Assembly: GCF_040054535.1 (NCBI RefSeq)
Contig: NC_090793.1
Coordinates: 20,230,001 to 20,294,000 of the forward strand
Length of the DNA: 64,000 bases
Direction: 5' to 3'
Source: Antennarius striatus
Taxonomy: Eukaryota; Chordata; Actinopteri; Lophiiformes; Antennariidae
The notes under the pieces were generated by a model. The model was not told the DNA's origin and ran no database searches. It was given only the letters and a program-made list of their open reading frames with translations. Below, piece after piece: positions 39,590 to 64,000 of the stretch; position 1 is the stretch's first letter; each line of letters starts with the position of its first letter. The position numbers and the translations under genes are program-made.

Positions 39590-40523
39590 TTCGTTTGATG
39601 CTTTTATTTTGCGCGACCACCAGACATGAAGACATTTTGGTGACGCTGCCCTCCTGTGGTCAATGGCCGTATTACATATTTTAGCTTTTCCCATTCTGAC
39701 TGAGGAATTATCATTTCAACGAGCAACATTCTTGATTGCTGGATAGGTTAAAGCATCAATCAAAGGATGTGAGTCCTGAGGTGAACTAAACGACCAAAAA
39801 CAACACAAAAACTCAAAGACAAAGACACAAAACCCTCTAAAGGACAGAAACTACAGGCATAATAACACATGTATGCTGAATTCATATTCAAGCCCTGACC
39901 TCGGATAAATTTACTCAAATCACTTCCTGCTCAGTGAATACATTTCCTACTCTCCTCATAACTATAACAGCAGTAATACATACCTTTACGCAATTAAATT
40001 AAATCAAAACAAGTCTTTTTCTATGATTTGAGTACAAAATCACCAACAGTGCAAGGCGAACATAATGGTAACGTTGAATTTCCTAGCTTTTTATCTGTTG
40101 TTAGGTAAACGGACTTTTATCCCGAAGTCCACCCACAGCAGTTGTGTGTTCAAAACCGGAAGGAAGAACAAGAAACAAACCGTTTCGTTCATCAAATGTG
40201 TATTTTTATCCTAATACAACATTTCTAAGCAGATCTGGGTTCTCTGTCCCTAACACAAAATCTGGTGTTGTCTGAACCGTGACAAGGGGCAGGAACAACA
40301 CATTCCAGAGAACCTCAGATATTTATTATGCCCGTCTCTAGGCTCCACCTTAAGGATGAGCCGCTATACATTAACACATATGCATCGTGTCTTTCTCTGG
40401 CTGGTTGTTTTTCCTTATTTGGTTCTCCAGTGTCAGTCACCAGTATCAGTCTCACGTACCAGTCTCCCGTACCAGTCTCCAGTGTCTCCACCTACAACAA
40501 AGAGCCAAACAAATTACACAGCC

Positions 40524-40550
40524 GGCGTCCGCCGCTAAACGGTGGACGCC
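40524..40550. repeat. 11-bp-stem hairpin, one per macrosatellite unit (unit 1 shown)
   Basis: GGCGTCCGCCG, loop CTAAA, then CGGTGGACGCC. All pairs match except one G-T wobble. It recurs in every unit, 210 bases before the CTCF-like motif. Two smaller perfect hairpins follow in each unit: ACAAAGT/ACTTTGT at 40776-40792 and TTTGTAC/GTACAAA at 40892-40908. Confidence 0.8.
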
Positions 40551-40733
40551 CATTACACAACGTATTTAGCTATATCATTATTGGATGAAATACAAAGTAA
40601 AAACAAAACCTGAGAATATATTTGATTATATTTTCCTTCACTGTTAAAGTGTTCGGTGAAAAACTACACAACAAAGTTTCGGAAGACGTGACAATTAATG
40701 TATTATACATTCTTGAGTGATCTGTGATCGTGT

Positions 40734-40749
40734 CGCCCCCTGGTGGTAA
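40734..40749 (-). promoter_or_regulatory. CTCF-like core motif, one per macrosatellite unit (unit 1 shown)
   Basis: CGCCCCCTGGTGGTAA on the + strand is the reverse complement of TTACCACCAGGGGGCG, a close fit to the CTCF core CCASYAGRKGGCR. The identical 16-mer starts at 40734, 42502, 44270, 46038, 47806, 49574, 51342, 53110, 54878, 56647, 58415, 60183, 61933 and 63685, always in the same orientation. No copy has a change in it. Binding is predicted from motif only. Confidence 0.6.
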
Positions 40750-41474
40750 TAGTGGGTTCCTACAAAAACATTGAGACAAAGTTAGACTTTGTTATATTGT
40801 TAATAGCTTCCGGCTGTGACTTTCAAATTAATTTTAAGAACCGAACGATTGCGTACTTGCCCCCCCCTCTCCCCCTAAAAACGAATACAATTTTGTACGC
40901 AGTACAAACTTCTAAATTAGTTGTTTGCATTACTATATCTCCTCTTACTTCGAGGTGTGTAGAAGATACTACACTCATCTCCCCGACAGAGTTAGCAGTA
41001 GCTTTAGCGCTACCAGACTTTTTCACCAGCTGACTCTTTCTATGTGAAAAATCGTCTATATGTTCGGTTGTAGTATTTCTTCAAAACCGATGTAATAAAA
41101 AAGGTTAAAAACGCATCATTGGAATATTTCGCGTATTTATATTTCCTTATTTTGATGCTTTTATTTTGAGAGCTAACCGGAAATGTAACTTCTTTGGTGA
41201 TTAAATCCAACTGTACCTACGTTGTGCCTACACTGCCCTCCTGTGGTTAATAGCCGTATTACATATTTTAGCTTTTCCCATTCTTACTGTGACATGGGAG
41301 TGCGTCTCCAAAGCCAGACGAAGTACTATCTACCTTACCTTTAAGACACTCTAACAAGAAAGCAGAGGGGGGCTACTACTGGTTAGCATTTCAGGCAGTT
41401 TAATGATTGTATAAATTTCAAACAGTAAGGCATTTTAAACTCCATTGATGACGCTGTTTGATCGTTGTAAATGG

Positions 41475-44400
41475 GGAATTATCATTTCAACGAGCAACAT
41501 TCTTCATTGCTGGATAGGTTAAAGCATCAATCAAAGGATGTGAGTCCTGAGTTGAACTAAACGACCAAAAACAACACAAAAACTCAAAGAGAAAGACACA
41601 AAACCCTCTAAAGGACAGAAACTACACGCATAATAACACATGTATGCTGAATTCATATTCAAGCCCTGACCTCGGATAAATTTACTCAAATCACTTCCTG
41701 CTCAGTGAATACATTTCCTACTCTTCTCATAACTATAACAGCAGTAATACATACCTTTATGCAATTAAATTAAAAGCAGTATTTTTCTATGATTTGAGTA
41801 CAAAATCACCAACAGTGCAAGGCGAACATAATGGTAACGTTGAATTTCCTAGCTTTTTATCTGTTGTTAGGTAAACGGACTTTTATCCCGAAGTCCACCC
41901 ACAGCAGTTGTGCGTGTTCAAAACCGGAAGGAAGAACAAGAAACAAACCGTTTCGTTCATCAAATGTGTATTTTTATCCTAATACAACATTTCTAAGCAG
42001 ATCTGGGTTCTCTGTCCCTAACACAAAATCTGGTGTTGTCTGAACCGTGACAAGGGGCAGGAACAACACATTCCAGAGAACCTCAGATATTTATTATGCC
42101 CGTCTCTAGGCTCCACCTTAAGGATGAGCCGCTATACATTAACACATATGCATCGTGTCTTTCTCTGGCTGGTTGTTTTTCCTTATTTGGTTCTCCAGTG
42201 TCAGTCACCAGTATCAGTGTCACATACCAGTCTCCCGTACCAGTCTCCAGTGTCTCCACCTACAACAAAGAGCCAAACAAATTACACAGCCGGCGTCCGC
42301 CGCTAAACGGTGGACGCCCATTCCACAACGTACTTAGCTATATCATTATTGGATGAAATACAAAGTAAAAACAAAACCTGAGAATATATTTGATTATATT
42401 TTCCTTCCCTGTTAAAGTGTTCCGTGAAAAACTACACAACAAAGTTTCGGAAGACGTGACAATTAATGTATTATACATTCTTGAGTGATCTGTGATCGTG
42501 TCGCCCCCTGGTGGTAATAGTGGGTTCCTACAAAAACATTGAGACAAAGTTAGACTTTGTTATATTGTTAATAGCTTCCGGCTGTGACTTTCAAATTAAT
42601 TTTAAGAACCGAACGATTGCGTACTTGCCCCCCCCTCTCCCCCTAAAATCGAATACAATTTTGTACGCAGTACAAACTTCTAAATTAGTTGTTTGCATTA
42701 CTATATCTCCTCTTACTTCGAGGTGTGTAGAAGATACTACACTCATCTCCCCGACAGAGTTAGCAGTAGCTTTAGCGCTACCAGACTTTTTCACCAGCTG
42801 ACTCTTTCTATGTGAAAAATCGTCTATATGTTCGGTTGTAGTATTTCTTCAAAACCGATGTAATAAAAAAGGTTAAAAACGCATCATTGGAATATTTCGC
42901 GTATTTATATTTCCTTATTTTGATGCTTTTATTTTGAGAGCTAACCGGAAATGTAACTTCTTCGGTGATTAAATCCAACTGTACCTACGTTGTGCCTACA
43001 CTGCCCTCCTGTGGTTAATAGCCGTATTACATATTTTAGCTTTTCCCATTCTTACTGTGACATGGGAGTGCGTCTCCAAAGCCAGACGAAGTACTATCTA
43101 CCTTACCTTTAAGACACTCTAACAAGAAAGCAGAGGGGGGCTACTACTGGTTAGCATTTCAGGCAGTTTAATGATTGTATAAATTTCAAACAGTAAGGCA
43201 TTTTAAACTCCATTGATGACGCTGTTTGATCGTTGTAAATGGGGAATTATCATTTCAACGAGCAACATTCTTCATTGCTGGATAGGTTAAAGCATCAATC
43301 AAAGGATGTGAGTCCTGAGTTGAACTAAACGACCAAAAACAACACAAAAACTCAAAGAGAAAGACACAAAACCCTCTAAAGGACAGAAACTACACGCATA
43401 ATAACACATGTATGCTGAATTCATATTCAAGCCCTGACCTCGGATAAATTTACTCAAATCACTTCCTGCTCAGTGAATACATTTCCTACTCTTCTCATAA
43501 CTATAACAGCAGTAATACATACCTTTATGCAATTAAATTAAAAGCAGTATTTTTCTATGATTTGAGTACAAAATCACCAACAGTGCAAGGCGAACATAAT
43601 GGTAACGTTGAATTTCCTAGCTTTTTATCTGTTGTTAGGTAAACGGACTTTTATCCCGAAGTCCACCCACAGCAGTTGTGCGTGTTCAAAACCGGAAGGA
43701 AGAACAAGAAACAAACCGTTTCGTTCATCAAATGTGTATTTTTATCCTAATACAACATTTCTAAGCAGATCTGGGTTCTCTGTCCCTAACACAAAATCTG
43801 GTGTTGTCTGAACCGTGACAAGGGGCAGGAACAACACATTCCAGAGAACCTCAGATATTTATTATGCCCGTCTCTAGGCTCCACCTTAAGGATGAGCCGC
43901 TATACATTAACACATATGCATCGTGTCTTTCTCTGGCTGGTTGTTTTTCCTTATTTGGTTCTCCAGTGTCAGTCACCAGTATCAGTGTCACATACCAGTC
44001 TCCCGTACCAGTCTCCAGTGTCTCCACCTACAACAAAGAGCCAAACAAATTACACAGCCGGCGTCCGCCGCTAAACGGTGGACGCCCATTCCACAACGTA
44101 CTTAGCTATATCATTATTGGATGAAATACAAAGTAAAAACAAAACCTGAGAATATATTTGATTATATTTTCCTTCCCTGTTAAAGTGTTCCGTGAAAAAC
44201 TACACAACAAAGTTTCGGAAGACGTGACAATTAATGTATTATACATTCTTGAGTGATCTGTGATCGTGTCGCCCCCTGGTGGTAATAGTGGGTTCCTACA
44301 AAAACATTGAGACAAAGTTAGACTTTGTTATATTGTTAATAGCTTCCGGCTGTGACTTTCAAATTAATTTTAAGAACCGAACGATTGCGTACTTGCCCCC

Positions 44401-47400
44401 CCCTCTCCCCCTAAAATCGAATACAATTTTGTACGCAGTACAAACTTCTAAATTAGTTGTTTGCATTACTATATCTCCTCTTACTTCGAGGTGTGTAGAA
44501 GATACTACACTCATCTCCCCGACAGAGTTAGCAGTAGCTTTAGCGCTACCAGACTTTTTCACCAGCTGACTCTTTCTATGTGAAAAATCGTCTATATGTT
44601 CGGTTGTAGTATTTCTTCAAAACCGATGTAATAAAAAAGGTTAAAAACGCATCATTGGAATATTTCGCGTATTTATATTTCCTTATTTTGATGCTTTTAT
44701 TTTGAGAGCTAACCGGAAATGTAACTTCTTCGGTGATTAAATCCAACTGTACCTACGTTGTGCCTACACTGCCCTCCTGTGGTTAATAGCCGTATTACAT
44801 ATTTTAGCTTTTCCCATTCTTACTGTGACATGGGAGTGCGTCTCCAAAGCCAGACGAAGTACTATCTACCTTACCTTTAAGACACTCTAACAAGAAAGCA
44901 GAGGGGGGCTACTACTGGTTAGCATTTCAGGCAGTTTAATGATTGTATAAATTTCAAACAGTAAGGCATTTTAAACTCCATTGATGACGCTGTTTGATCG
45001 TTGTAAATGGGGAATTATCATTTCAACGAGCAACATTCTTCATTGCTGGATAGGTTAAAGCATCAATCAAAGGATGTGAGTCCTGAGTTGAACTAAACGA
45101 CCAAAAACAACACAAAAACTCAAAGAGAAAGACACAAAACCCTCTAAAGGACAGAAACTACACGCATAATAACACATGTATGCTGAATTCATATTCAAGC
45201 CCTGACCTCGGATAAATTTACTCAAATCACTTCCTGCTCAGTGAATACATTTCCTACTCTTCTCATAACTATAACAGCAGTAATACATACCTTTATGCAA
45301 TTAAATTAAAAGCAGTATTTTTCTATGATTTGAGTACAAAATCACCAACAGTGCAAGGCGAACATAATGGTAACGTTGAATTTCCTAGCTTTTTATCTGT
45401 TGTTAGGTAAACGGACTTTTATCCCGAAGTCCACCCACAGCAGTTGTGCGTGTTCAAAACCGGAAGGAAGAACAAGAAACAAACCGTTTCGTTCATCAAA
45501 TGTGTATTTTTATCCTAATACAACATTTCTAAGCAGATCTGGGTTCTCTGTCCCTAACACAAAATCTGGTGTTGTCTGAACCGTGACAAGGGGCAGGAAC
45601 AACACATTCCAGAGAACCTCAGATATTTATTATGCCCGTCTCTAGGCTCCACCTTAAGGATGAGCCGCTATACATTAACACATATGCATCGTGTCTTTCT
45701 CTGGCTGGTTGTTTTTCCTTATTTGGTTCTCCAGTGTCAGTCACCAGTATCAGTGTCACATACCAGTCTCCCGTACCAGTCTCCAGTGTCTCCACCTACA
45801 ACAAAGAGCCAAACAAATTACACAGCCGGCGTCCGCCGCTAAACGGTGGACGCCCATTACACAACGTACTTAGCTATATCATTATTGGATGAAATACAAA
45901 GTAAAAACAAAACCTGAGAATATATTTGATTATATTTTCCTTCCCTGTTAAAGTGTTCCGTGAAAAACTACACAACAAAGTTTCGGAAGACGTGACAATT
46001 AATGTATTATACATTCTTGAGTGATCTGTGATCGTGTCGCCCCCTGGTGGTAATAGTGGGTTCCTACAAAAACATTGAGACAAAGTTAGACTTTGTTATA
46101 TTGTTAATAGCTTCCGGCTGTGACTTTCAAATTAATTTTAAGAACCGAACGATTGCGTACTTGCCCCCCCCTCTCCCCCTAAAATCGAATACAATTTTGT
46201 ACGCAGTACAAACTTCTAAATTAGTTGTTTGCATTACTATATCTCCTCTTACTTCGAGGTGTGTAGAAGATACTACACTCATCTCCCCGACAGAGTTAGC
46301 AGTAGCTTTAGCGCTACCAGACTTTTTCACCAGCTGACTCTTTCTATGTGAAAAATCGTCTATATGTTCGGTTGTAGTATTTCTTCAAAACCGATGTAAT
46401 AAAAAAGGTTAAAAACGCATCATTGGAATATTTCGCGTATTTATATTTCCTTATTTTGATGCTTTTATTTTGAGAGCTAACCGGAAATGTAACTTCTTCG
46501 GTGATTAAATCCAACTGTACCTACGTTGTGCCTACACTGCCCTCCTGTGGTTAATAGCCGTATTACATATTTTAGCTTTTCCCATTCTTACTGTGACATG
46601 GGAGTGCGTCTCCAAAGCCAGACGAAGTACTATCTACCTTACCTTTAAGACACTCTAACAAGAAAGCAGAGGGGGGCTACTACTGGTTAGCATTTCAGGC
46701 AGTTTAATGATTGTATAAATTTCAAACAGTAAGGCATTTTAAACTCCATTGATGACGCTGTTTGATCGTTGTAAATGGGGAATTATCATTTCAACGAGCA
46801 ACATTCTTCATTGCTGGATAGGTTAAAGCATCAATCAAAGGATGTGAGTCCTGAGTTGAACTAAACGACCAAAAACAACACAAAAACTCAAAGAGAAAGA
46901 CACAAAACCCTCTAAAGGACAGAAACTACACGCATAATAACACATGTATGCTGAATTCATATTCAAGCCCTGACCTCGGATAAATTTACTCAAATCACTT
47001 CCTGCTCAGTGAATACATTTCCTACTCTTCTCATAACTATAACAGCAGTAATACATACCTTTATGCAATTAAATTAAAAGCAGTATTTTTCTATGATTTG
47101 AGTACAAAATCACCAACAGTGCAAGGCGAACATAATGGTAACGTTGAATTTCCTAGCTTTTTATCTGTTGTTAGGTAAACGGACTTTTATCCCGAAGTCC
47201 ACCCACAGCAGTTGTGCGTGTTCAAAACCGGAAGGAAGAACAAGAAACAAACCGTTTCGTTCATCAAATGTGTATTTTTATCCTAATACAACATTTCTAA
47301 GCAGATCTGGGTTCTCTGTCCCTAACACAAAATCTGGTGTTGTCTGAACCGTGACAAGGGGCAGGAACAACACATTCCAGAGAACCTCAGATATTTATTA

Positions 47401-50400
47401 TGCCCGTCTCTAGGCTCCACCTTAAGGATGAGCCGCTATACATTAACACATATGCATCGTGTCTTTCTCTGGCTGGTTGTTTTTCCTTATTTGGTTCTCC
47501 AGTGTCAGTCACCAGTATCAGTGTCACATACCAGTCTCCCGTACCAGTCTCCAGTGTCTCCACCTACAACAAAGAGCCAAACAAATTACACAGCCGGCGT
47601 CCGCCGCTAAACGGTGGACGCCCATTACACAACGTACTTAGCTATATCATTATTGGATGAAATACAAAGTAAAAACAAAACCTGAGAATATATTTGATTA
47701 TATTTTCCTTCCCTGTTAAAGTGTTCCGTGAAAAACTACACAACAAAGTTTCGGAAGACGTGACAATTAATGTATTATACATTCTTGAGTGATCTGTGAT
47801 CGTGTCGCCCCCTGGTGGTAATAGTGGGTTCCTACAAAAACATTGAGACAAAGTTAGACTTTGTTATATTGTTAATAGCTTCCGGCTGTGACTTTCAAAT
47901 TAATTTTAAGAACCGAACGATTGCGTACTTGCCCCCCCCTCTCCCCCTAAAATCGAATACAATTTTGTACGCAGTACAAACTTCTAAATTAGTTGTTTGC
48001 ATTACTATATCTCCTCTTACTTCGAGGTGTGTAGAAGATACTACACTCATCTCCCCGACAGAGTTAGCAGTAGCTTTAGCGCTACCAGACTTTTTCACCA
48101 GCTGACTCTTTCTATGTGAAAAATCGTCTATATGTTCGGTTGTAGTATTTCTTCAAAACCGATGTAATAAAAAAGGTTAAAAACGCATCATTGGAATATT
48201 TCGCGTATTTATATTTCCTTATTTTGATGCTTTTATTTTGAGAGCTAACCGGAAATGTAACTTCTTCGGTGATTAAATCCAACTGTACCTACGTTGTGCC
48301 TACACTGCCCTCCTGTGGTTAATAGCCGTATTACATATTTTAGCTTTTCCCATTCTTACTGTGACATGGGAGTGCGTCTCCAAAGCCAGACGAAGTACTA
48401 TCTACCTTACCTTTAAGACACTCTAACAAGAAAGCAGAGGGGGGCTACTACTGGTTAGCATTTCAGGCAGTTTAATGATTGTATAAATTTCAAACAGTAA
48501 GGCATTTTAAACTCCATTGATGACGCTGTTTGATCGTTGTAAATGGGGAATTATCATTTCAACGAGCAACATTCTTCATTGCTGGATAGGTTAAAGCATC
48601 AATCAAAGGATGTGAGTCCTGAGTTGAACTAAACGACCAAAAACAACACAAAAACTCAAAGAGAAAGACACAAAACCCTCTAAAGGACAGAAACTACACG
48701 CATAATAACACATGTATGCTGAATTCATATTCAAGCCCTGACCTCGGATAAATTTACTCAAATCACTTCCTGCTCAGTGAATACATTTCCTACTCTTCTC
48801 ATAACTATAACAGCAGTAATACATACCTTTATGCAATTAAATTAAAAGCAGTATTTTTCTATGATTTGAGTACAAAATCACCAACAGTGCAAGGCGAACA
48901 TAATGGTAACGTTGAATTTCCTAGCTTTTTATCTGTTGTTAGGTAAACGGACTTTTATCCCGAAGTCCACCCACAGCAGTTGTGCGTGTTCAAAACCGGA
49001 AGGAAGAACAAGAAACAAACCGTTTCGTTCATCAAATGTGTATTTTTATCCTAATACAACATTTCTAAGCAGATCTGGGTTCTCTGTCCCTAACACAAAA
49101 TCTGGTGTTGTCTGAACCGTGACAAGGGGCAGGAACAACACATTCCAGAGAACCTCAGATATTTATTATGCCCGTCTCTAGGCTCCACCTTAAGGATGAG
49201 CCGCTATACATTAACACATATGCATCGTGTCTTTCTCTGGCTGGTTGTTTTTCCTTATTTGGTTCTCCAGTGTCAGTCACCAGTATCAGTGTCACATACC
49301 AGTCTCCCGTACCAGTCTCCAGTGTCTCCACCTACAACAAAGAGCCAAACAAATTACACAGCCGGCGTCCGCCGCTAAACGGTGGACGCCCATTCCACAA
49401 CGTACTTAGCTATATCATTATTGGATGAAATACAAAGTAAAAACAAAACCTGAGAATATATTTGATTATATTTTCCTTCCCTGTTAAAGTGTTCCGTGAA
49501 AAACTACACAACAAAGTTTCGGAAGACGTGACAATTAATGTATTATACATTCTTGAGTGATCTGTGATCGTGTCGCCCCCTGGTGGTAATAGTGGGTTCC
49601 TACAAAAACATTGAGACAAAGTTAGACTTTGTTATATTGTTAATAGCTTCCGGCTGTGACTTTCAAATTAATTTTAAGAACCGAACGATTGCGTACCTGC
49701 CCCCCCCTCTCCCCCTAAAATCGAATACAATTTTGTACGCAGTACAAACTTCTAAATTAGTTGTTTGCATTACTATATCTCCTCTTACTTCGAGGTGTGT
49801 AGAAGATACTACACTCATCTCCCCGACAGAGTTAGCAGTAGCTTTAGCGCTACCAGACTTTTTCACCAGCTGACTCTTTCTATGTGAAAAATCGTCTATA
49901 TGTTCGGTTGTAGTATTTCTTCAAAACCGATGTAATAAAAAAGGTTAAAAACGCATCATTGGAATATTTCGCGTATTTATATTTCCTTATTTTGATGCTT
50001 TTATTTTGAGAGCTAACCGGAAATGTAACTTCTTCGGTGATTAAATCCAACTGTACCTACGTTGTGCCTACACTGCCCTCCTGTGGTTAATAGCCGTATT
50101 ACATATTTTAGCTTTTCCCATTCTTACTGTGACATGGGAGTGCGTCTCCAAAGCCAGACGAAGTACTATCTACCTTACCTTTAAGACACTCTAACAAGAA
50201 AGCAGAGGGGGGCTACTACTGGTTAGCATTTCAGGCAGTTCAATGATTGTATAAATTTCAAACAGTAAGGCATTTTAAACTCCATTGATGACGCTGTTTG
50301 ATCGTTGTAAATGGGGAATTATCATTTCAACGAGCAACATTCTTCATTGCTGGATAGGTTAAAGCATCAATCAAAGGATGTGAGTCCTGAGTTGAACTAA

Positions 50401-53400
50401 ACGACCAAAAACAACACAAAAACTCAAAGAGAAAGACACAAAACCCTCTAAAGGACAGAAACTACACGCATAATAACACATGTATGCTGAATTCATATTC
50501 AAGCCCTGACCTCGGATAAATTTACTCAAATCACTTCCTGCTCAGTGAATACATTTCCTACTCTTCTCATAACTATAACAGCAGTAATACATACCTTTAT
50601 GCAATTAAATTAAAAGCAGTATTTTTCTATGATTTGAGTACAAAATCACCAACAGTGCAAGGCGAACATAATGGTAACGTTGAATTTCCTAGCTTTTTAT
50701 CTGTTGTTAGGTAAACGGACTTTTATCCCGAAGTCCACCCACAGCAGTTGTGCGTGTTCAAAACCGGAAGGAAGAACAAGAAACAAACCGTTTCGTTCAT
50801 CAAATGTGTATTTTTATCCTAATACAACATTTCTAAGCAGATCTGGGTTCTCTGTCCCTAACACAAAATCTGGTGTTGTCTGAACCGTGACAAGGGGCAG
50901 GAACAACACATTCCAGAGAACCTCAGATATTTATTATGCCCGTCTCTAGGCTCCACCTTAAGGATGAGCCGCTATACATTAACACATATGCATCGTGTCT
51001 TTCTCTGGCTGGTTGTTTTTCCTTATTTGGTTCTCCAGTGTCAGTCACCAGTATCAGTGTCACATACCAGTCTCCCGTACCAGTCTCCAGTGTCTCCACC
51101 TACAACAAAGAGCCAAACAAATTACACAGCCGGCGTCCGCCGCTAAACGGTGGACGCCCATTCCACAACGTACTTAGCTATATCATTATTGGATGAAATA
51201 CAAAGTAAAAACAAAACCTGAGAATATATTTGATTATATTTTCCTTCCCTGTTAAAGTGTTCCGTGAAAAACTACACAACAAAGTTTCGGAAGACGTGAC
51301 AATTAATGTATTATACATTCTTGAGTGATCTGTGATCGTGTCGCCCCCTGGTGGTAATAGTGGGTTCCTACAAAAACATTGAGACAAAGTTAGACTTTGT
51401 TATATTGTTAATAGCTTCCGGCTGTGACTTTCAAATTAATTTTAAGAACCGAACGATTGCGTACTTGCCCCCCCCTCTCCCCCTAAAATCGAATACAATT
51501 TTGTACGCAGTACAAACTTCTAAATTAGTTGTTTGCATTACTATATCTCCTCTTACTTCGAGGTGTGTAGAAGATACTACACTCATCTCCCCGACAGAGT
51601 TAGCAGTAGCTTTAGCGCTACCAGACTTTTTCACCAGCTGACTCTTTCTATGTGAAAAATCGTCTATATGTTCGGTTGTAGTATTTCTTCAAAACCGATG
51701 TAATAAAAAAGGTTAAAAACGCATCATTGGAATATTTCGCGTATTTATATTTCCTTATTTTGATGCTTTTATTTTGAGAGCTAACCGGAAATGTAACTTC
51801 TTCGGTGATTAAATCCAACTGTACCTACGTTGTGCCTACACTGCCCTCCTGTGGTTAATAGCCGTATTACATATTTTAGCTTTTCCCATTCTTACTGTGA
51901 CATGGGAGTGCGTCTCCAAAGCCAGACGAAGTACTATCTACCTTACCTTTAAGACACTCTAACAAGAAAGCAGAGGGGGGCTACTACTGGTTAGCATTTC
52001 AGGCAGTTTAATGATTGTATAAATTTCAAACAGTAAGGCATTTTAAACTCCATTGATGACGCTGTTTGATCGTTGTAAATGGGGAATTATCATTTCAACG
52101 AGCAACATTCTTCATTGCTGGATAGGTTAAAGCATCAATCAAAGGATGTGAGTCCTGAGTTGAACTAAACGACCAAAAACAACACAAAAACTCAAAGAGA
52201 AAGACACAAAACCCTCTAAAGGACAGAAACTACACGCATAATAACACATGTATGCTGAATTCATATTCAAGCCCTGACCTCGGATAAATTTACTCAAATC
52301 ACTTCCTGCTCAGTGAATACATTTCCTACTCTTCTCATAACTATAACAGCAGTAATACATACCTTTATGCAATTAAATTAAAAGCAGTATTTTTCTATGA
52401 TTTGAGTACAAAATCACCAACAGTGCAAGGCGAACATAATGGTAACGTTGAATTTCCTAGCTTTTTATCTGTTGTTAGGTAAACGGACTTTTATCCCGAA
52501 GTCCACCCACAGCAGTTGTGCGTGTTCAAAACCGGAAGGAAGAACAAGAAACAAACCGTTTCGTTCATCAAATGTGTATTTTTATCCTAATACAACATTT
52601 CTAAGCAGATCTGGGTTCTCTGTCCCTAACACAAAATCTGGTGTTGTCTGAACCGTGACAAGGGGCAGGAACAACACATTCCAGAGAACCTCAGATATTT
52701 ATTATGCCCGTCTCTAGGCTCCACCTTAAGGATGAGCCGCTATACATTAACACATATGCATCGTGTCTTTCTCTGGCTGGTTGTTTTTCCTTATTTGGTT
52801 CTCCAGTGTCAGTCACCAGTATCAGTGTCACATACCAGTCTCCCGTACCAGTCTCCAGTGTCTCCACCTACAACAAAGAGCCAAACAAATTACACAGCCG
52901 GCGTCCGCCGCTAAACGGTGGACGCCCATTACACAACGTACTTAGCTATATCATTATTGGATGAAATACAAAGTAAAAACAAAACCTGAGAATATATTTG
53001 ATTATATTTTCCTTCCCTGTTAAAGTGTTCCGTGAAAAACTACACAACAAAGTTTCGGAAGACGTGACAATTAATGTATTATACATTCTTGAGTGATCTG
53101 TGATCGTGTCGCCCCCTGGTGGTAATAGTGGGTTCCTACAAAAACATTGAGACAAAGTTAGACTTTGTTATATTGTTAATAGCTTCCGGCTGTGACTTTC
53201 AAATTAATTTTAAGAACCGAACGATTGCGTACTTGCCCCCCCCTCTCCCCCTAAAATCGAATACAATTTTGTACGCAGTACAAACTTCTAAATTAGTTGT
53301 TTGCATTACTATATCTCCTCTTACTTCGAGGTGTGTAGAAGATACTACACTCATCTCCCCGACAGAGTTAGCAGTAGCTTTAGCGCTACCAGACTTTTTC

Positions 53401-56400
53401 ACCAGCTGACTCTTTCTATGTGAAAAATCGTCTATATGTTCGGTTGTAGTATTTCTTCAAAACCGATGTAATAAAAAAGGTTAAAAACGCATCATTGGAA
53501 TATTTCGCGTATTTATATTTCCTTATTTTGATGCTTTTATTTTGAGAGCTAACCGGAAATGTAACTTCTTCGGTGATTAAATCCAACTGTACCTACGTTG
53601 TGCCTACACTGCCCTCCTGTGGTTAATAGCCGTATTACATATTTTAGCTTTTCCCATTCTTACTGTGACATGGGAGTGCGTCTCCAAAGCCAGACGAAGT
53701 ACTATCTACCTTACCTTTAAGACACTCTAACAAGAAAGCAGAGGGGGGCTACTACTGGTTAGCATTTCAGGCAGTTTAATGATTGTATAAATTTCAAACA
53801 GTAAGGCATTTTAAACTCCATTGATGACGCTGTTTGATCGTTGTAAATGGGGAATTATCATTTCAACGAGCAACATTCTTCATTGCTGGATAGGTTAAAG
53901 CATCAATCAAAGGATGTGAGTCCTGAGTTGAACTAAACGACCAAAAACAACACAAAAACTCAAAGAGAAAGACACAAAACCCTCTAAAGGACAGAAACTA
54001 CACGCATAATAACACATGTATGCTGAATTCATATTCAAGCCCTGACCTCGGATAAATTTACTCAAATCACTTCCTGCTCAGTGAATACATTTCCTACTCT
54101 TCTCATAACTATAACAGCAGTAATACATACCTTTATGCAATTAAATTAAAAGCAGTATTTTTCTATGATTTGAGTACAAAATCACCAACAGTGCAAGGCG
54201 AACATAATGGTAACGTTGAATTTCCTAGCTTTTTATCTGTTGTTAGGTAAACGGACTTTTATCCCGAAGTCCACCCACAGCAGTTGTGCGTGTTCAAAAC
54301 CGGAAGGAAGAACAAGAAACAAACCGTTTCGTTCATCAAATGTGTATTTTTATCCTAATACAACATTTCTAAGCAGATCTGGGTTCTCTGTCCCTAACAC
54401 AAAATCTGGTGTTGTCTGAACCGTGACAAGGGGCAGGAACAACACATTCCAGAGAACCTCAGATATTTATTATGCCCGTCTCTAGGCTCCACCTTAAGGA
54501 TGAGCCGCTATACATTAACACATATGCATCGTGTCTTTCTCTGGCTGGTTGTTTTTCCTTATTTGGTTCTCCAGTGTCAGTCACCAGTATCAGTGTCACA
54601 TACCAGTCTCCCGTACCAGTCTCCAGTGTCTCCACCTACAACAAAGAGCCAAACAAATTACACAGCCGGCGTCCGCCGCTAAACGGTGGACGCCCATTCC
54701 ACAACGTACTTAGCTATATCATTATTGGATGAAATACAAAGTAAAAACAAAACCTGAGAATATATTTGATTATATTTTCCTTCCCTGTTAAAGTGTTCCG
54801 TGAAAAACTACACAACAAAGTTTCGGAAGACGTGACAATTAATGTATTATACATTCTTGAGTGATCTGTGATCGTGTCGCCCCCTGGTGGTAATAGTGGG
54901 TTCCTACAAAAACATTGAGACAAAGTTAGACTTTGTTATATTGTTAATAGCTTCCGGCTGTGACTTTCAAATTAATTTTAAGAACCGAACGATTGCGTAC
55001 TTGCCCCCCCCCTCTCCCCCTAAAATCGAATACAATTTTGTACGCAGTACAAACTTCTAAATTAGTTGTTTGCATTACTATATCTCCTCTTACTTCGAGG
55101 TGTGTAGAAGATACTACACTCATCTCCCCGACAGAGTTAGCAGTAGCTTTAGCGCTACCAGACTTTTTCACCAGCTGACTCTTTCTATGTGAAAAATCGT
55201 CTATATGTTCGGTTGTAGTATTTCTTCAAAACCGATGTAATAAAAAAGGTTAAAAACGCATCATTGGAATATTTCGCGTATTTATATTTCCTTATTTTGA
55301 TGCTTTTATTTTGAGAGCTAACCGGAAATGTAACTTCTTCGGTGATTAAATCCAACTGTACCTACGTTGTGCCTACACTGCCCTCCTGTGGTTAATAGCC
55401 GTATTACATATTTTAGCTTTTCCCATTCTTACTGTGACATGGGAGTGCGTCTCCAAAGCCAGACGAAGTACTATCTACCTTACCTTTAAGACACTCTAAC
55501 AAGAAAGCAGAGGGGGGCTACTACTGGTTAGCATTTCAGGCAGTTCAATGATTGTATAAATTTCAAACAGTAAGGCATTTTAAACTCCATTGATGACGCT
55601 GTTTGATCGTTGTAAATGGGGAATTATCATTTCAACGAGCAACATTCTTCATTGCTGGATAGGTTAAAGCATCAATCAAAGGATGTGAGTCCTGAGTTGA
55701 ACTAAACGACCAAAAACAACACAAAAACTCAAAGAGAAAGACACAAAACCCTCTAAAGGACAGAAACTACACGCATAATAACACATGTATGCTGAATTCA
55801 TATTCAAGCCCTGACCTCGGATAAATTTACTCAAATCACTTCCTGCTCAGTGAATACATTTCCTACTCTTCTCATAACTATAACAGCAGTAATACATACC
55901 TTTATGCAATTAAATTAAAAGCAGTATTTTTCTATGATTTGAGTACAAAATCACCAACAGTGCAAGGCGAACATAATGGTAACGTTGAATTTCCTAGCTT
56001 TTTATCTGTTGTTAGGTAAACGGACTTTTATCCCGAAGTCCACCCACAGCAGTTGTGCGTGTTCAAAACCGGAAGGAAGAACAAGAAACAAACCGTTTCG
56101 TTCATCAAATGTGTATTTTTATCCTAATACAACATTTCTAAGCAGATCTGGGTTCTCTGTCCCTAACACAAAATCTGGTGTTGTCTGAACCGTGACAAGG
56201 GGCAGGAACAACACATTCCAGAGAACCTCAGATATTTATTATGCCCGTCTCTAGGCTCCACCTTAAGGATGAGCCGCTATACATTAACACATATGCATCG
56301 TGTCTTTCTCTGGCTGGTTGTTTTTCCTTATTTGGTTCTCCAGTGTCAGTCACCAGTATCAGTGTCACATACCAGTCTCCCGTACCAGTCTCCAGTGTCT

Positions 56401-57387
56401 CCACCTACAACAAAGAGCCAAACAAATTACACAGCCGGCGTCCGCCGCTAAACGGTGGACGCCCATTCCACAACGTACTTAGCTATATCATTATTGGATG
56501 AAATACAAAGTAAAAACAAAACCTGAGAATATATTTGATTATATTTTCCTTCCCTGTTAAAGTGTTCCGTGAAAAACTACACAACAAAGTTTCGGAAGAC
56601 GTGACAATTAATGTATTATACATTCTTGAGTGATCTGTGATCGTGTCGCCCCCTGGTGGTAATAGTGGGTTCCTACAAAAACATTGAGACAAAGTTAGAC
56701 TTTGTTATATTGTTAATAGCTTCCGGCTGTGACTTTCAAATTAATTTTAAGAACCGAACGATTGCGTACTTGCCCCCCCCTCTCCCCCTAAAATCGAATA
56801 CAATTTTGTACGCAGTACAAACTTCTAAATTAGTTGTTTGCATTACTATATCTCCTCTTACTTCGAGGTGTGTAGAAGATACTACACTCATCTCCCCGAC
56901 AGAGTTAGCAGTAGCTTTAGCGCTACCAGACTTTTTCACCAGCTGACTCTTTCTATGTGAAAAATCGTCTATATGTTCGGTTGTAGTATTTCTTCAAAAC
57001 CGATGTAATAAAAAAGGTTAAAAACGCATCATTGGAATATTTCGCGTATTTATATTTCCTTATTTTGATGCTTTTATTTTGAGAGCTAACCGGAAATGTA
57101 ACTTCTTCGGTGATTAAATCCAACTGTACCTACGTTGTGCCTACACTGCCCTCCTGTGGTTAATAGCCGTATTACATATTTTAGCTTTTCCCATTCTTAC
57201 TGTGACATGGGAGTGCGTCTCCAAAGCCAGACGAAGTACTATCTACCTTACCTTTAAGACACTCTAACAAGAAAGCAGAGGGGGGCTACTACTGGTTAGC
57301 ATTTCAGGCAGTTTAATGATTGTATAAATTTCAAACAGTAAGGCATTTTAAACTCCATTGATGACGCTGTTTGATCGTTGTAAATGG
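41475..57387. repeat. Macrosatellite units 2-10 (homogenised core)
   Basis: All nine carry the core variants TCCCTGTTAAAGTGTTCCGTG (shown in part), CCTAAAATCGAATAC and AACGTACTTAGC. They differ from each other at very few positions. The first is CCCATTCCAC (units 2, 3, 6, 7, 9, 10) versus CCCATTACAC (units 4, 5, 8). The others are a T-to-C in GCAGTTCAATG (units 6 and 9), TACCTGCC in unit 6, and one extra C in unit 9. Confidence 0.93.
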
Positions 57388-60300
57388 GGAATTATCATTT
57401 CAACGAGCAACATTCTTCATTGCTGGATAGGTTAAAGCATCAATCAAAGGATGTGAGTCCTGAGTTGAACTAAACGACCAAAAACAACACAAAAACTCAA
57501 AGAGAAAGACACAAAACCCTCTAAAGGACAGAAACTACACGCATAATAACACATGTATGCTGAATTCATATTCAAGCCCTGACCTCGGATAAATTTACTC
57601 AAATCACTTCCTGCTCAGTGAATACATTTCCTACTCTTCTCATAACTATAACAGCAGTAATACATACCTTTATGCAATTAAATTAAAAGCAGTATTTTTC
57701 TATGATTTGAGTACAAAATCACCAACAGTGCAAGGCGAACATAATGGTAACGTTGAATTTCCTAGCTTTTTATCTGTTGTTAGGTAAACGGACTTTTATC
57801 CCGAAGTCCACCCACAGCAGTTGTGCGTGTTCAAAACCGGAAGGAAGAACAAGAAACAAACCGTTTCGTTCATCAAATGTGTATTTTTATCCTAATACAA
57901 CATTTCTAAGCAGATCTGGGTTCTCTGTCCCTAACACAAAATCTGGTGTTGTCTGAACCGTGACAAGGGGCAGGAACAACACATTCCAGAGAACCTCAGA
58001 TATTTATTATGCCCGTCTCCAGGCTCCACCTTAAGGATGAGCCGCTATACATTAACACATATGCATCGTGTCTTTCTCTGGCTGGTTGTTTTTCCTTATT
58101 TGGTTCTCCAGTGTCAGTCACCAGTATCAGTCTCACATACCAGTCTCCCGTACCAGTCTCCAGTGTCTCCACCTACAACAAAGAGCCAAACAAATTACAC
58201 AGCCGGCGTCCGCCGCTAAACGGTGGACGCCCATTACACAACGTATTTAGCTATATCATTATTGGATGAAATACAAAGTAAAAACAAAACCTGAGAATAT
58301 ATTTGATTATATTTTCCTTCACTGTTAAAGTGTTCGGTGAAAAACTACACAACAAAGTTTCGGAAGACGTGACAATTAATGTATTATACATTCTTGAGTG
58401 ATCTGTGATCGTGTCGCCCCCTGGTGGTAATAGTGGGTTCCTACAAAAACATTGAGACAAAGTTAGACTTTGTTATATTGTTAATAGCTTCCGGCTGTGA
58501 CTTTCAAATTAATTTTAAGAACCGAACGATTGCGTACTTGCCCCCCCCTCTCCCCCTAAAAACGAATACAATTTTGTACGCAGTACAAACTTCTAAATTA
58601 GTTGTTTGCATTACTATATCTCCTCTTACTTCGAGGTGTGTAGAAGATACTACACTCATCTCCCCGACAGAGTTAGCAGTAGCTTTAGCGCTACCAGACT
58701 TTTTCACCAGCTGACTCTTTCTATGTGAAAAATCGTCTATATGTTCGGTTGTAGTATTTCTTCAAAACCGATGTAATAAAAAAGGTTAAAAACGCATCAT
58801 TGGAATATTTCGCGTATTTATATTTCCTTATTTTGATGCTTTTATTTTGAGAGCTAACCGGAAATGTAACTTCTTCGGTGATTAAATCCAACTGTACCTA
58901 CGTTGTGCCTACACTGCCCTCCTGTGGTTAATAGCCGTATTACATATTTTAGCTTTTCCCATTCTTACTGTGACATGGGAGTGCGTCTCCAAACCCAGAC
59001 GAAGTACTATCTACCTTACCTTTAAGACACTCTAACAAGAAAGCAGAGGGGGGCTACTACTGGTTAGCATTTCAGGCAGTTTAATGATTGTATAAATTTC
59101 AAACAGTAAGGCATTTTAAACTCCATTGATGACGCTGTTTGATCGTTGTAAATGGGGAATTATCATTTCAACGAGCAACATTCTTCATTGCTGGATAGGT
59201 TAAAGCATCAATCAAAGGATGTGAGTCCTGAGTTGAACTAAACGACCAAAAACAACACAAAAACTCAAAGAGAAAGATACAAAACCCTCTAAAGGACAGA
59301 AACTACACGCATAATAACACATGTATGCTGAATTCATATTCAAGCCCTGACCTCGGATAAATTTACTCAAATCACTTCCTGCTCAGTGAATACATTTCCT
59401 ACTCTTCTCATAACTATAACAGCAGTAATACATACCTTTATGCAATTAAATTAAAAGCAGTATTTTTCTATGATTTGAGTACAAAATCACCAACAGTGCA
59501 AGGCGAACATAATGGTAACGTTGAATTTCCTAGCTTTTTATCTGTTGTTAGGTAAACGGACTTTTATCCCGAAGTCCACCCACAGCAGTTGTGTGTGTTC
59601 AAAACCGGAAGGAAGAACAAGAAACAAACCGTTTCGTTCATCAAATGTGTATTTTTATCCTAATACAACATTTCTAAGCAGATCTGGGTTCTCTGTCCCT
59701 AACACAAAATCTGGTGTTGTCTGAACCGTGACAAGGGGCAGGAACAACACATTCCAGAGAACCTCAGATATTTATTATGCCCGTCTCTAGGCTCCACCTT
59801 AAGGATGAGCCGCTATACATTAACACATATGCTTCGTGTCTTTCTCTGGCTGGTTGTTTTTCCTTATTTGGTTCTCCAGTGTCAGTCACCAGTATCAGTG
59901 TCACATACCAGTCTCCCGTACCAGTCTCCAGTGTCTCCACCTACAACAAAGAGCCAAACAAATTACACAGCCGGCGTCCGCCGCTAAACGGTGGACGCCC
60001 ATTACACAACGTATTTAGCTATATCATTATTGGATGAAATACAAAGTAAAAACAAAACCTGAGAATATATTTGATTATATTTTCCTTCACTGTTAAAGTG
60101 TTCGGTGAAAAACTACACAACAAAGTTTCGGAAGACGTGACAATTAATGTATTATACATTCTTGAGTGATCTGTGATCGTGTCGCCCCCTGGTGGTAATA
60201 GTGGGTTCCTACAAAAACATTGAGACAAAGTTAGACTTTGTTATATTGTTAATAGCTTCCGGCTGTGACTTTCAAATTAATTTTAAGAACCGAACGATTG

Positions 60301-60922
60301 CGTACTTGCCCCCCCTCTCCCCCTAAAAACGAATACAATTTTGTACGCAGTACAAACTTCTAAATTAGTTGTTTGCATTACTATATCTCCTCTTACTTCG
60401 AGGTGTGTAGAAGATACTACACTCATCTCCCCGACAGAGTTAGCAGTAGCTTTAGCGCTACCAGACTTTTTCACCAGCTGACTCTTTCTATGTGAAAAAT
60501 CGTCTATATGTTCGGTTGTAGTATTTCTTCAAAACCGATGTAATAAAAAAGGTTAAAAACGCATCATTGGAATATTTCGCGTATTTATATTTCCTTATTT
60601 TGATGCTTTTATTTTGAGAGCTAACCGGAAATGTAACTTCTTCGGTGATTAAATCCAACTGTACCTACGTTGTGCCTACACTGCCCTCCTGTGGTTAATA
60701 GCCGTATTACATATTTTAGCTTTTCCCATTCTTACTGTGACATGGGAGTGCGTCTCCAAACCCAGACGAAGTACTATCTACCTTACCTTTAAGACACTCT
60801 AACAAGAAAGCAGAGGGGGGCTACTACTGGTTAGCATTTCAGGCAGTTTAATGATTGTATAAATTTCAAACAGTAAGGCATTTTAAACTCCATTGATGAC
60901 GCTGTTTGATCGTTGTAAATGG
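57388..60922. repeat. Macrosatellite units 11-12 (right subfamily)
   Basis: They return to the unit 1 variants (CACTGTTAAAGTGTTCGG, AAAAACGAATAC, AACGTATTTAGC) and add CCAAACCCAGACG. Unit 12 shares TTGTGTGTGTTC with the left edge and has ATGCTTCGTG in place of ATGCATCGTG. Confidence 0.9.
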
Positions 60923-63900
60923 GGAATTATCATTTCAACGAGCAACATTCTTCATTGCTGGATAGGTTAAAGCATCAATCAAAGGATTTGACTCCTGAGG
61001 TGAACTAAACGACCAAAAACAACACAAAAACTCAAAGAGAAAGACACAAAACCCTCTAAAGGACAGAAACTACAGGCATAATAACACATTCAAGCCCTGA
61101 CCTCGGATAAATTTACTCAAATCACTTCCTGCTCAGTGAATACATTTCCTACTCTCCTCATAACTATAACAGCAGTAATACATACCTTTACGCAATTAAA
61201 TTAAAAGCAGTATTTTTCTATGATTTGAGTACAAAATCACCAACAGTGCAAGGCAAACATAAGGGTAACGTTGAATTTCCTAGCTTTTTATCTGTTGTTA
61301 GGTAAACAGACTTTTATCCCGAAGTCCACCCAGAGCAGTTGTGCGTGTTCAAAACCGGAAGGAAGAACAAGAAACAAACCGTTTCGTTGATCAAATGTGT
61401 ATTTTTATCCTAATACAACATTTCTAAGCAGATCTGGGTTCTCTGTCCCTAACACAAAATCTGGTGTTGTCTGAACCGTGACAAGGGGCAGGAACAACAC
61501 ATTCCAGAGAACCTCAGATATTTATTATGCCCGTCTCCAGGCTCCACCTTAAGGATGAGCCGCTATACATTAACACATATGCATCGTGTCTTTCTCTGGC
61601 TGGTTGTTTTTCCTTATTTGGTTCTCCAGTGTCAGTCACCAGTATCAGTCTCACATACCAGTCTCCCGTACCAGTCTCCAGTGTCTCCACCTACAACAAA
61701 GAGCCAAACAAATTACACAGCCGGCGTCCGCCGCTAAACGGTGGACGCCCATTACACAACGTATTTAGCTATATCATTATTGGATGAAATACAAAGTAAA
61801 AACAAAACCTGAGAATATATTTGATTATATTTTCCTTCACTGTTAAAGTGTTCGGTGAAAAACTACACAACAAAGTTTCGGAAGACGTGACAATTAATGT
61901 ATTATACATTCTTGAGTGATCTGTGATCGTGTCGCCCCCTGGTGGTAATAGTGGGTTCCTACAAAAACATTGAGACAAAGTTAGACTTTGTTATATTGTT
62001 AATAGCTTCCGGCTGTGACTTTCAAATTAATTTTAAGAACCGAACGATTGCGTACTTGCCCCCCCCCTCTCCCCCTAAAAACGAATACAATTTTGTACGC
62101 AGTACAAACTTCTAAATTAGTTGTTTGCATTACTATATCTCCTCTTACTTCGAGGTGTGTAGAAGATACTACACTCATCTCCCCGACAGAGTTAGCAGTA
62201 GCTTTAGCGCTACCAGACTTTTTCACCAGCTGACTCTTTCTATGTGAAAAATCGTCTATATGTTCGGTTGTAGTATTTCTTCAAAACCGATGTAATAAAA
62301 AAGGTTAAAAACGCATCATTGGAATATTTCGCGTATTTATATTTCCTTATTTTGATGCTTTTATTTTGAGAGCTAACCGGAAATGTAACTTCTTCGGTGA
62401 TTAAATCCAACTGTACCTACGTTGTGCCTACACTGCCCTCCTGTGGTTAATAGCCGTATTACATATTTTAGCTTTTCCCATTCTTACTGTGACATGGGAG
62501 TGCGTCTCCAAACCCAGACGAAGTACTATCTACCTTACCTTTAAGACACTCTAACAAGAAAGCAGAGGGGGGCTACTACTGGTTAGCATTTCAGGCAGTT
62601 TAATGATTGTATAAATTTCAAACAGTAAGGCATTTTAAACTCCATTGATGACGCTGTTTGATCGTTGTAAATGGGGAATTATCATTTCAACGAGCAACAT
62701 TCTTCATTGCTGGATAGGTTAAAGCATCAATCAAAGGATTTGACTCCTGAGGTGAACTAAACGACCAAAAACAACACAAAAACTCAAAGAGAAAGACACA
62801 AAACCCTCTAAAGGACAGAAACTACAGGCATAATAACACATTCAAGCCCTGACCTCGGATAAATTTACTCAAATCACTTCCTGCTCAGTGAATACATTTC
62901 CTACTCTCCTCATAACTATAACAGCAGTAATACATACCTTTACGCAATTAAATTAAAAGCAGTATTTTTCTATGATTTGAGTACAAAATCACCAACAGTG
63001 CAAGGCAAACATAAGGGTAACGTTGAATTTCCTAGCTTTTTATCTGTTGTTAGGTAAACAGACTTTTATCCCGAAGTCCACCCAGAGCAGTTGTGCGTGT
63101 TCAAAACCGGAAGGAAGAACAAGAAACAAACCGTTTCGTTGATCAAATGTGTATTTTTATCCTAATACAACATTTCTAAGCAGATCTGGGTTCTCTGTCC
63201 CTAACACAAAATCTGGTGTTGTCTGAACCGTGACAAGGGGCAGGAACAACACATTCCAGAGAACCTCAGATATTTATTATGCCCGTCTCCAGGCTCCACC
63301 TTAAGGATGAGCCGCTATACATTAACACATATGCATCGTGTCTTTCTCTGGCTGGTTGTTTTTCCTTATTTGGTTCTCCAGTGTCAGTCACCAGTATCAG
63401 TCTCACATACCAGTCTCCCGTACCAGTCTCCAGTGTCTCCACCTACAACAAAGAGCCAAACAAATTACACAGCCGGCGTCCGCCGCTAAACGGTGGACGC
63501 CCATTACACAACGTATTTAGCTATATCATTATTGGATGAAATACAAAGTAAAGACAAAACCTGAGAATATATTTGATTATATTTTCCTTCACTGTTAAAG
63601 TGTTCGGTGAAAAACTACACAACAAAGTTTCGGAAGACGTGACAATTAATGTATTATACATTCTTGAGTGATCTGTGATCGTGTCGCCCCCTGGTGGTAA
63701 TAGTGGGTTCCTACAAAAACATTGAGACAAAGTTAGACTTTGTTATATTGTTAATAGCTTCCGGCTGTGACTTTCAAATTAATTTTAAGAACCGAACGAT
63801 TGCGTACTTGCCCCCCCCTCTCCCCCTAAAAACGAATACAATTTTGTACGCAGTACAAACTTCTAAATTAGTTGTTTGCATTACTATATCTCCTCTTACT

Positions 63901-64000
63901 TCGAGGTGTGTAGAAGATACTACACTCATCTCCCCGACAGAGTTAGCAGTAGCTTTAGCGCTACCAGACTTTTTCACCAGCTGACTCTTTCTATGTGAAA
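60923..64000. repeat. Macrosatellite units 13-14 (deleted subfamily)
   Basis: Unit 13 and the partial unit 14 share a 17-bp loss after AACACAT (AACACATTCAAGCCC), GGATTTGACTCCTGAGG, AACATAAGGGTAACG and GTTGATCAAATG. The start-to-start spacing is 1,752. Shared private changes show that one was copied from the other. Confidence 0.92.

Follow-up and report, generated by a model that had tools for sequence, protein, structure and literature searches.

A tandem array with CTCF-like sites in Antennarius striatus, composed of a dispersed repeat family and a solo LTR

Tandem arrays and dispersed elements with CTCF sites

CTCF is a protein that delimits domains in folded chromosomes. Retroelements have spread CTCF sites, rodent B2 being an example; among tandem repeats, the human D4Z4 unit carries the DUX4 gene and has CTCF-dependent insulator activity, and human DXZ4 marks a superdomain boundary. 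DXZ4 is described as an uninterrupted tandem array of a 3-kb, 62% GC unit with a CTCF motif in each unit and no obvious protein coding. Internal microsatellites aside, its sequence occurs nowhere but at Xq23, its promoter is conserved, and the inactive X is where CTCF binds it; beyond New World monkeys, conservation is described as poor except at the promoter and the CTCF site (PMC3218863). D4Z4 is reported as a distally located array at human 4q35, where 3.3-kb units carrying CTCF sites are repeated in tandem (PMC2639723). The tRNA tandem repeat of human 1q23.3 is described as a variable array of a 7.3-kb, GC-rich unit with tRNA genes and a CTCF motif, which has ERV LTRs around it and for which a boundary role has been suggested (PMC4041453), while the mammalian retroelement-spread sites are reported as dispersed repeat families with CTCF motifs in their copies and binding detected by ChIP-seq (PMC3368268).

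The array considered here lies in a window of 64,000 nucleotides of Antennarius striatus (NC_090793.1, here C18, positions 20,230,001 to 20,294,000; coordinates below are window positions unless a contig is named). A sequence-only reading of this window had proposed DXZ4 as the parallel, which holds for the uninterrupted tandem array, the CTCF motif in each unit and the lack of obvious protein coding; however, the unit is 1.77 kb long and, at ~39% GC, not GC- and CpG-rich, its LTR and family relatives are dispersed rather than locus-unique, and its two CTCF sites per unit are predicted. D4Z4 resembles the array in its kb-sized unit, CTCF sites and distal location, whereas the unit here consists of dispersed-repeat sequence with predicted CTCF sites and has no substantial ORF (longest 96 aa, no Pfam family above cut-off). 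In contrast to the 1q23.3 repeat, no tRNA was found in the window and the LTR lies inside the unit; unlike the dispersed mammalian sites, the interior of one copy appears to have become a one-directional array of putative sites. DXZ4 membership is not supported, and D4Z4 and transposon-spread CTCF sites are equally close parallels. Fish are not known to have X inactivation of the DXZ4 type.

Extent and homogeneity of the array

A long head-to-tail array with the motif in a single orientation, as first read, was borne out: the window contains 14 copies of CGCCCCCTGGTGGTAA, each on the + strand, from 40734 to 63685. Motif-to-motif distances are 1768-1769 bp and then 1750 and 1752 bp. The array overruns the window, with 25 motif copies at C18:20270734-20313011 (14 inside the window) and an assembled length of ~44-45 kb (~25 units); these 25 are among just 27 exact matches in the 548-Mb assembly, where the reversed control pattern has none. 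Head-to-tail arrangement, units of at least 1 kb, many copies and high identity characterise it as a macrosatellite. Its beginning had been placed at 39590; near-identical repeats instead start at 39701, preceded by the outer part of a dispersed element.

39511..39700, + strand: left outer part of the host element, a single occurrence at the left margin (dispersed matches, 84-92%)
39701..40733, + strand: incomplete first unit (unit positions 739-1768), 98% identical to unit two
40734..64000, + strand: tandem array, window part, with 14 motif copies; extends to ~C18:20314019

The 24 motif-to-motif units of 1750-1769 bp vary at just 53/1769 alignment columns, and the identity of the 16-mer in all copies carries little information because nearly every base of the unit is identical. 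Unit lengths fall into two classes separated by a 17-bp indel, and two subtypes (A and B) are distinguished, with unit 20 carrying a short subtype-B tract (columns 895-924) inside an otherwise subtype-A stretch. The array sits 0.73 Mb from the scaffold end and, as the earlier reading had it, adjoins DDR2-, HSD17B7- and SERBP1-like exons, assigned by domain-family matches alone (the dehydrogenase match falls 0.2 bits below the curated cut-off), which we take to be those of DDR2, HSD17B7 and SERBP1.

The absence of recognisable coding or rRNA content, also claimed earlier, stands at the cut-offs applied. No RNA gene or rDNA spacer was matched by Rfam in the window at gathering scores, and an RNA identity was rejected for one unit, where sub-threshold matches were weak and their families implausible; a tRNA array was likewise rejected (zero tRNA in the window), as was a protein-coding unit, since eight unit ORFs had no Pfam family above the curated cut-off (the 96-aa maximum refers to ATG/GTG/TTG ORFs in 42000-44300). 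No fish CTCF macrosatellite was found in the titles and abstract openings of the open-access papers listed.

Solo LTR and dispersed host family

The unit had been read as free of transposon content, a claim that fails: 544 of its 1768 bp are a solo LTR, and the remainder comes from a dispersed repeat family.

41865..42408, + strand: solo LTR (unit positions 1132-1675), in every unit; dispersed copies, TG...CA ends, 4-bp duplications
42192..42251, + strand: 13-bp minisatellite inside the LTR, in every unit

The solo-LTR assignment follows from the TG...CA ends, the short target duplication (CTGT, 4 bp, at 41861-41864 and 42409-42412, read by eye) and the many dispersed copies, found on many contigs at 87-97% identity, with 4-bp duplications also flanking 3/5 other copies inspected. 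Units 1-9 have C as the final base of the LTR, the remaining units A, and the copy of the unit at the right margin is without the LTR. The LTR insertion preceded amplification of the unit.

The non-LTR ~1.2 kb belongs to a family found at 112 places by a single 28-mer test, the outer parts of which border the array on both sides; the array therefore arose by tandem expansion inside a single copy. On the left, family sequence begins sharply at 39511, with at least 39 dispersed places, among the best 40 of 584 candidates scored, matching from 39511-39518 onward (query 332-339) at 84-92% identity, and 89% over 153 bp for the copy on C8. The right outer part lies in the right flank at L011:533-974, and matches to the C18 copy end at L011:974 or earlier; by eye, the similarity between the copies on C2 and C8 continues beyond this 3' limit, which may therefore be a breakpoint of the C18 copy. 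Right-tail matches lie downstream of a same-strand family site 1 (see below) in 20/24 places, by coordinates only and with 24 of the 43 non-self matches taken in, and left ends have site 1 or the tail downstream in 20/39 cases (one at 3.8 kb distance; one C16 left-end match and one C23 site-1 place excluded). Small tandem runs of the family also occur on C3 and C16, where the ~1.2-kb spacing would not fit the LTR.

The family clusters near chromosome ends, with 37/41 clusters examined lying <5 Mb from a scaffold end, a count drawn from 86 of 100 listed places (112 in all) outside C21-C24; the control LTR (36 matches merged to 32, with C22, C24 and short minisatellite matches left out) is not distributed in this way. 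An orientation of the clusters toward the nearest scaffold end was rejected (16 toward vs 25 away).

Predicted CTCF sites and their conservation

All bit scores derive from an approximate CTCF matrix. On this matrix the motif, earlier taken for the reverse complement of a CTCF core, is a strong match (site 1), scoring 22.7 bits in 25/25 array copies. The view of a single CTCF match per unit is correct as to this strong site, present everywhere, but overlooked a second same-strand site in each unit (site 2, n=25 at 15.8 bits); together they provide ~50 CTCF-like matches facing one direction, on the minus strand.

39644..39662, - strand: left-margin CTCF-like site of type 2, 17.6 bits, aligning with family site 2
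40731..40749, - strand: CTCF-like site 1, first copy (matrix scan, 22.7 bits)
42499, 44267, 46035, 47803, 49571, 51339, 53107, 54875, 56644, 58412, 60180, 61930, 63682, - strand: further site-1 starts
41231..41249, - strand: CTCF-like site 2, first copy (matrix scan, 15.8 bits)
42999, 44767, 46535, 48303, 50071, 51839, 53607, 55376, 57144, 58912, 60679, 62431, - strand: further site-2 starts

With the same matrix, 5 Mb of random sequence had no site of at least 20 bits, and 200 kb of genomic background from 20 other places had one of at least 22.6 bits (1 and 6 per 200 kb at the site-1 and site-2 thresholds, respectively). At the right margin, a CTCF-like site at 84616 (17.3 bits) lies on the strand opposite to the array sites.

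Dispersed relatives, 73-78% identical over unit positions 1-600, qualify the family as a repeat-borne source of CTCF-like sites, the motif scoring at least 13.3 bits across copies retrieved with a motif-containing query. Site 1 is kept in 15/15 relatives (13.3-24.0 bits), retrieved with a query starting at the motif, which favours motif-keeping copies; site 2 is kept in 7/7 (13.3-17.5 bits), and site 1 has been lost from the relative at the array's right margin (9.0 bits). Around site 2, conservation over 19 columns peaks precisely at the CTCF window (9 rows). The idea that site 1 is the family's best-conserved segment was rejected, its CTCF window ranking 62/163 (17 rows), and a non-CTCF block nearby is better conserved (17 rows). 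Array site 1 differs from the family consensus, taken as the ancestral state, at 6/19 positions, yet is stronger by 5 bits, a gain equalled by random substitution in 0.0175% of 400,000 trials, in a post hoc test; array site 2 scores below its family counterpart (15.8 vs 17.5 bits).

Origin, function and alternative explanations

About an even chance is given to the explanation in which internal amplification of one element copy produced a CTCF-bound, one-sided boundary, with binding inferred from CTCF biology. The dispersed element would already have held two same-orientation CTCF-like sites, a solo LTR would have entered one internal unit, and unequal exchange and gene conversion would have brought this LTR-bearing unit to ~25 copies and kept them alike. 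These steps of origin are supported by the sequence, through the LTR-less relatives and the LTR-less margin copy, the 4-bp duplications of the LTR, the family parts on both flanks with their right tails downstream of site 1, and the two subtypes with the mosaic unit 20. TAD boundaries in zebrafish are reported to be marked by convergent CTCF motifs (PMC8438036). In cells with an unmethylated array, CTCF would bind some or all of the minus-strand sites, and the array may then halt cohesin coming from the left, DDR2-HSD17B7-SERBP1 side. It would insulate and anchor loops on that side, its strength depending on array length, and the lone opposite-facing site just right of the array would give the right edge the character of a divergent boundary. 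The likely function would be that of a CTCF-bound boundary of the D4Z4/DXZ4 type, unless methylation or silencing blocks binding.

A neutral satellite could well be the correct explanation, although its chance is put somewhat short of even: ordinary unequal exchange in a distal region would have made the array, with transposon-borne CTCF-like motifs that are methylated or unoccupied. Recent amplification alone accounts for the extreme homogeneity, the small runs on C3 and C16 indicate that the family forms tandems elsewhere, and near site 1 conservation does not peak at the CTCF window; multimerised D4Z4 is, moreover, reported to lose CTCF binding (PMC2639723), so that a 25-copy array may be silent. 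The strengthening of array site 1 despite six changes, and the peak of local conservation at site 2, argue against neutrality, as does the lack of CpG depletion in the unit (observed/expected 0.79 vs 0.41 in 20 control regions), a weak point given flanks of 0.70 (left) and 0.66 (right).

That LTR promoters, one per unit, drive transcription of the array as a long non-coding RNA or piRNA precursor, with CTCF incidental, appears improbable. Each unit does have an LTR, in uniform orientation and ~90 bp from site 1, but neither Rfam (gathering scores, window) nor Pfam (eight unit ORFs, curated cut-off) returned a match, and the family runs with ~1.2-kb spacing have no room for an LTR. Far less credible still is an assembly artefact, by which collapse or expansion errors would have given a wrong copy number; groups of identical units (for example 2, 5, 8 and 3, 4, 7) are difficult for assemblers, yet both margins resolve into diverged sequence with zero N, and the two subtypes and the mosaic unit stay distinct.

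Beyond the boundary reading given above, it is conceivable, though we consider it unlikely, that the end-concentrated, transposon-like family spreads directional CTCF sites through the distal arms and that the C18 array, as a powerful boundary acting in one direction, separates the DDR2-HSD17B7-SERBP1 block from the 0.7 Mb distal to it. The array would then be a counterpart of D4Z4/DXZ4 that evolved independently, and selection would have sharpened its version of the site.

Perspectives

The origin of a CTCF macrosatellite would here be readable stepwise in one genome, from a motif-bearing dispersed element, through LTR insertion and multiplication and homogenisation of the interior, to one site lying nearer the CTCF consensus. 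The locus would thereby serve as a test of whether tens of same-direction sites strengthen a loop anchor or cancel themselves by silencing.

Extent and composition of the array

The window covers C18:20230001–20294000 and holds 14 copies of the 16-mer CGCCCCCTGGTGGTAA, on a single strand throughout, at spacings of 1768 or 1769 bp and later of 1750 and 1752 bp; an exact-match search of the assembly (548 Mb, 42 contigs) returned 27 copies, 25 of which belong to the array on contig C18. The array ends outside the window, and with the 40 kb beyond also read, near-identical units extend from 39701 to ~84019 (window numbering carried on past 64000). Among 24 motif-to-motif units, 53 of 1769 columns vary, and the units fall into two subtypes, told apart by 11 linked bases and an indel of 17 bp; unit 20, a subtype A unit containing a short subtype B tract (columns 895–924), points to gene conversion, besides unequal exchange, in the shaping of the units. 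At unit position 1026 the last unit is broken by a long GATA microsatellite (84020–84211, outside the window; L011:20–211 in the sequence right of the array), terminated by what we take to be retroelement-tail-like sequence, and beyond the microsatellite the unit resumes as a diverged, LTR-less copy.

CTCF-like sites and LTR in the array and at its margins; bit scores rest on CTCF matrix MA0139.1
CTCF-like site 1: all 25 motif copies in the array, minus strand, 22.7 bits each (matrix scan)
CTCF-like site 2: 25 copies, one per unit, first at 41231, strand as site 1, 15.8 bits (matrix scan)
Left-margin CTCF-like site: 39644, strand as the array sites, 17.6 bits (matrix scan)
Right-hand CTCF-like site: 84616, just past the array, opposite strand, 17.3 bits (matrix scan)
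Solo LTR: unit positions 1132–1675 (dispersed copies, TG...CA ends, 4-bp direct repeats)

Twenty control stretches (200 kb in total) held one site of at least 22.6 bits and six of at least 15.8 bits, a rate that makes chance an unlikely source of one strong CTCF-like site in 1.2 kb. The tens of copies in the array are a single event multiplied, and motif identity between copies is no sign of selection, because almost all bases of the unit are identical. Two more strong lone sites lie on the minus strand, as in the array, at 6723 (22.1 bits) and 38039 (20.0 bits), and weaker sites are found in the window on either strand.

Origin of the unit

A genome search with the unit as query found dispersed LTR copies on many contigs at 87–97% identity; read by eye, the LTR ends in TG...CA and is surrounded by 4-bp direct repeats, CTGT in the array, with such repeats also at three of five other copies and absent at two. 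The degenerate right-margin copy spans the insertion point uninterrupted, without the LTR (85% and 78% identity), indicating that the LTR inserted into an older unit that was amplified afterwards. The LTR contains a GC-rich hairpin whose 10-base arms include a single G–T pair (42292–42318 and 44060–44086 in the two units checked), and match coordinates at one LTR copy (C12:1023469–1025256) show its internal 13-bp minisatellite seemingly expanded to many repeats.

The rest of the unit belongs to a dispersed family: positions 1–600 match 15 further loci at 73–78% identity, plus two short pieces, and positions 601–1131 likewise match other dispersed places. For a 201-bp piece of one relative, the best 40 of 521 candidates, itself included, all reach at least 81% identity. 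The 28-mer adjoining site 1 was found at 112 places with up to three mismatches (reversed control, 0), the array copies carrying four mismatches and being absent from the 100 of those places listed. A 44-mer across site 2 has 50 matches, of which the array accounts for 25, its left margin for one and the rest of the genome for 24. Small tandem runs spaced by ~1.2 kb, the unit length minus the LTR, occur at C3 28.405–28.409 Mb and at C16 0.933–0.935 and 0.939–0.941 Mb. Family copies at C21:16.696–16.706 and 17.560–17.578 Mb recur near-regularly, with one interval of 1.8 kb and several of 3.1 kb, and may be whole elements in another tandem arrangement.

Parts of the same family lie on both flanks. 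On the left, dispersed matches start sharply at 39511, at least 39 further places beginning at query 332–339, plus one unrelated stretch; the right flank matches a further set of dispersed copies as far as L011:974, and copies on C2 and C8 have common sequence past the C18 right limit. From coordinates alone, family site 1 lies upstream on the same strand for 20 of 24 right-tail matches (24 of 43 non-self matches used), and site 1 or a tail follows downstream of 20 among the 39 left ends. The 12 left ends with a downstream tail have the nearest tail end at 1.3–2.0 kb (10 cases) or 2.9–3.0 kb (two), against ~45 kb from left end to tail end at C18, which makes an internal tandem expansion within one element copy the best reading of the array.

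Conservation of the CTCF-like sites

Site 1 matches are retained by 15/15 fetched relatives (13.3–24.0 bits) and site 2 matches by 7/7 (13.3–17.5 bits), in the same relative orientation, counts biased toward retention in that the relatives were found by a query starting at the motif. Across the site 2 region the CTCF window is exactly the best-conserved 19-column window (alignment of nine rows); the site 1 window ranks 62 of 163 (17 rows), the top block lying directly beside it. Relative to the family consensus, array site 1 carries six changes in its 19 positions and scores 22.7 bits where the consensus scores 17.6, a gain that six random substitutions attained in 0.0175% of 400,000 trials, which suggests, in a post hoc test, that selection strengthened it. 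Site 2 is weakened in the array (17.5 to 15.8 bits), and site 1 of the right-margin relative is down to 9.0 bits.

Genomic position and neighbours

The array lies 0.73 Mb from the C18 scaffold end. With 86 of the listed 28-mer places, on contigs of known length, grouped into 41 clusters, and scaffold ends not necessarily being chromosome ends, 37 clusters lie within 5 Mb of an end (16.9 expected) and 32 within 4 Mb (13.6 expected), each unequalled in 200,000 random draws; a 2-Mb limit takes in 12 (p 0.03 against an expectation of 6.8). The dispersed LTR, taken as control, showed no end concentration (12/32 within 5 Mb vs 12.7 expected), and cluster orientation relative to the scaffold end is inconsistent (16 toward, 25 away).

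Pfam matches (E up to 0.01) were obtained for eight of ten flank ORFs tested, those at 28642 and 38386 giving none; they fit a tyrosine kinase (presumably DDR2), a short-chain dehydrogenase (probably HSD17B7; at 26.4 bits just under the 26.6 cut-off), a HABP4/SERBP1-type protein (gene name likewise presumed) and a nucleotide-sugar transporter, apparently of SLC35A type, located ~16 kb past the array's right edge. The interval from the SERBP1-like gene to the array contains a 20-bp minisatellite, CTCCTATCTGCTCCTATCCA, of ~22 copies (34263–34700).

Proposed function

A convergent CTCF motif rule has been reported at zebrafish boundaries (PMC8438036), under which the minus-strand motifs would hold loops reaching left, toward DDR2–HSD17B7–SERBP1, and the single site on the plus strand, at 84616, would point rightward, together making a divergent boundary heavy on its left side. 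The main rival explanation is that the array is a neutral satellite, possibly methylated. A lone D4Z4 unit is reported to bind CTCF and insulate, and multimers to lose both (PMC2639723). The unit has a CpG observed/expected ratio of 0.79, compared with 0.70 and 0.66 in the left and right flanks and 0.41 in controls, and therefore bears no mark of long methylation, although a young array would carry none either.

Should the array work at all, D4Z4, DXZ4 and the 1q23.3 tRNA array would be closest to it in working; membership of DXZ4 itself is not supported, given the GC content and non-unique sequence. The spread of CTCF sites by repeats has been described (PMC3368268), CTCF macrosatellites are likewise already known, and the sequence evidence indicates that the two are combined at C18, where the route from repeat-spread CTCF-like sites to a CTCF-type macrosatellite can be followed within a single locus.
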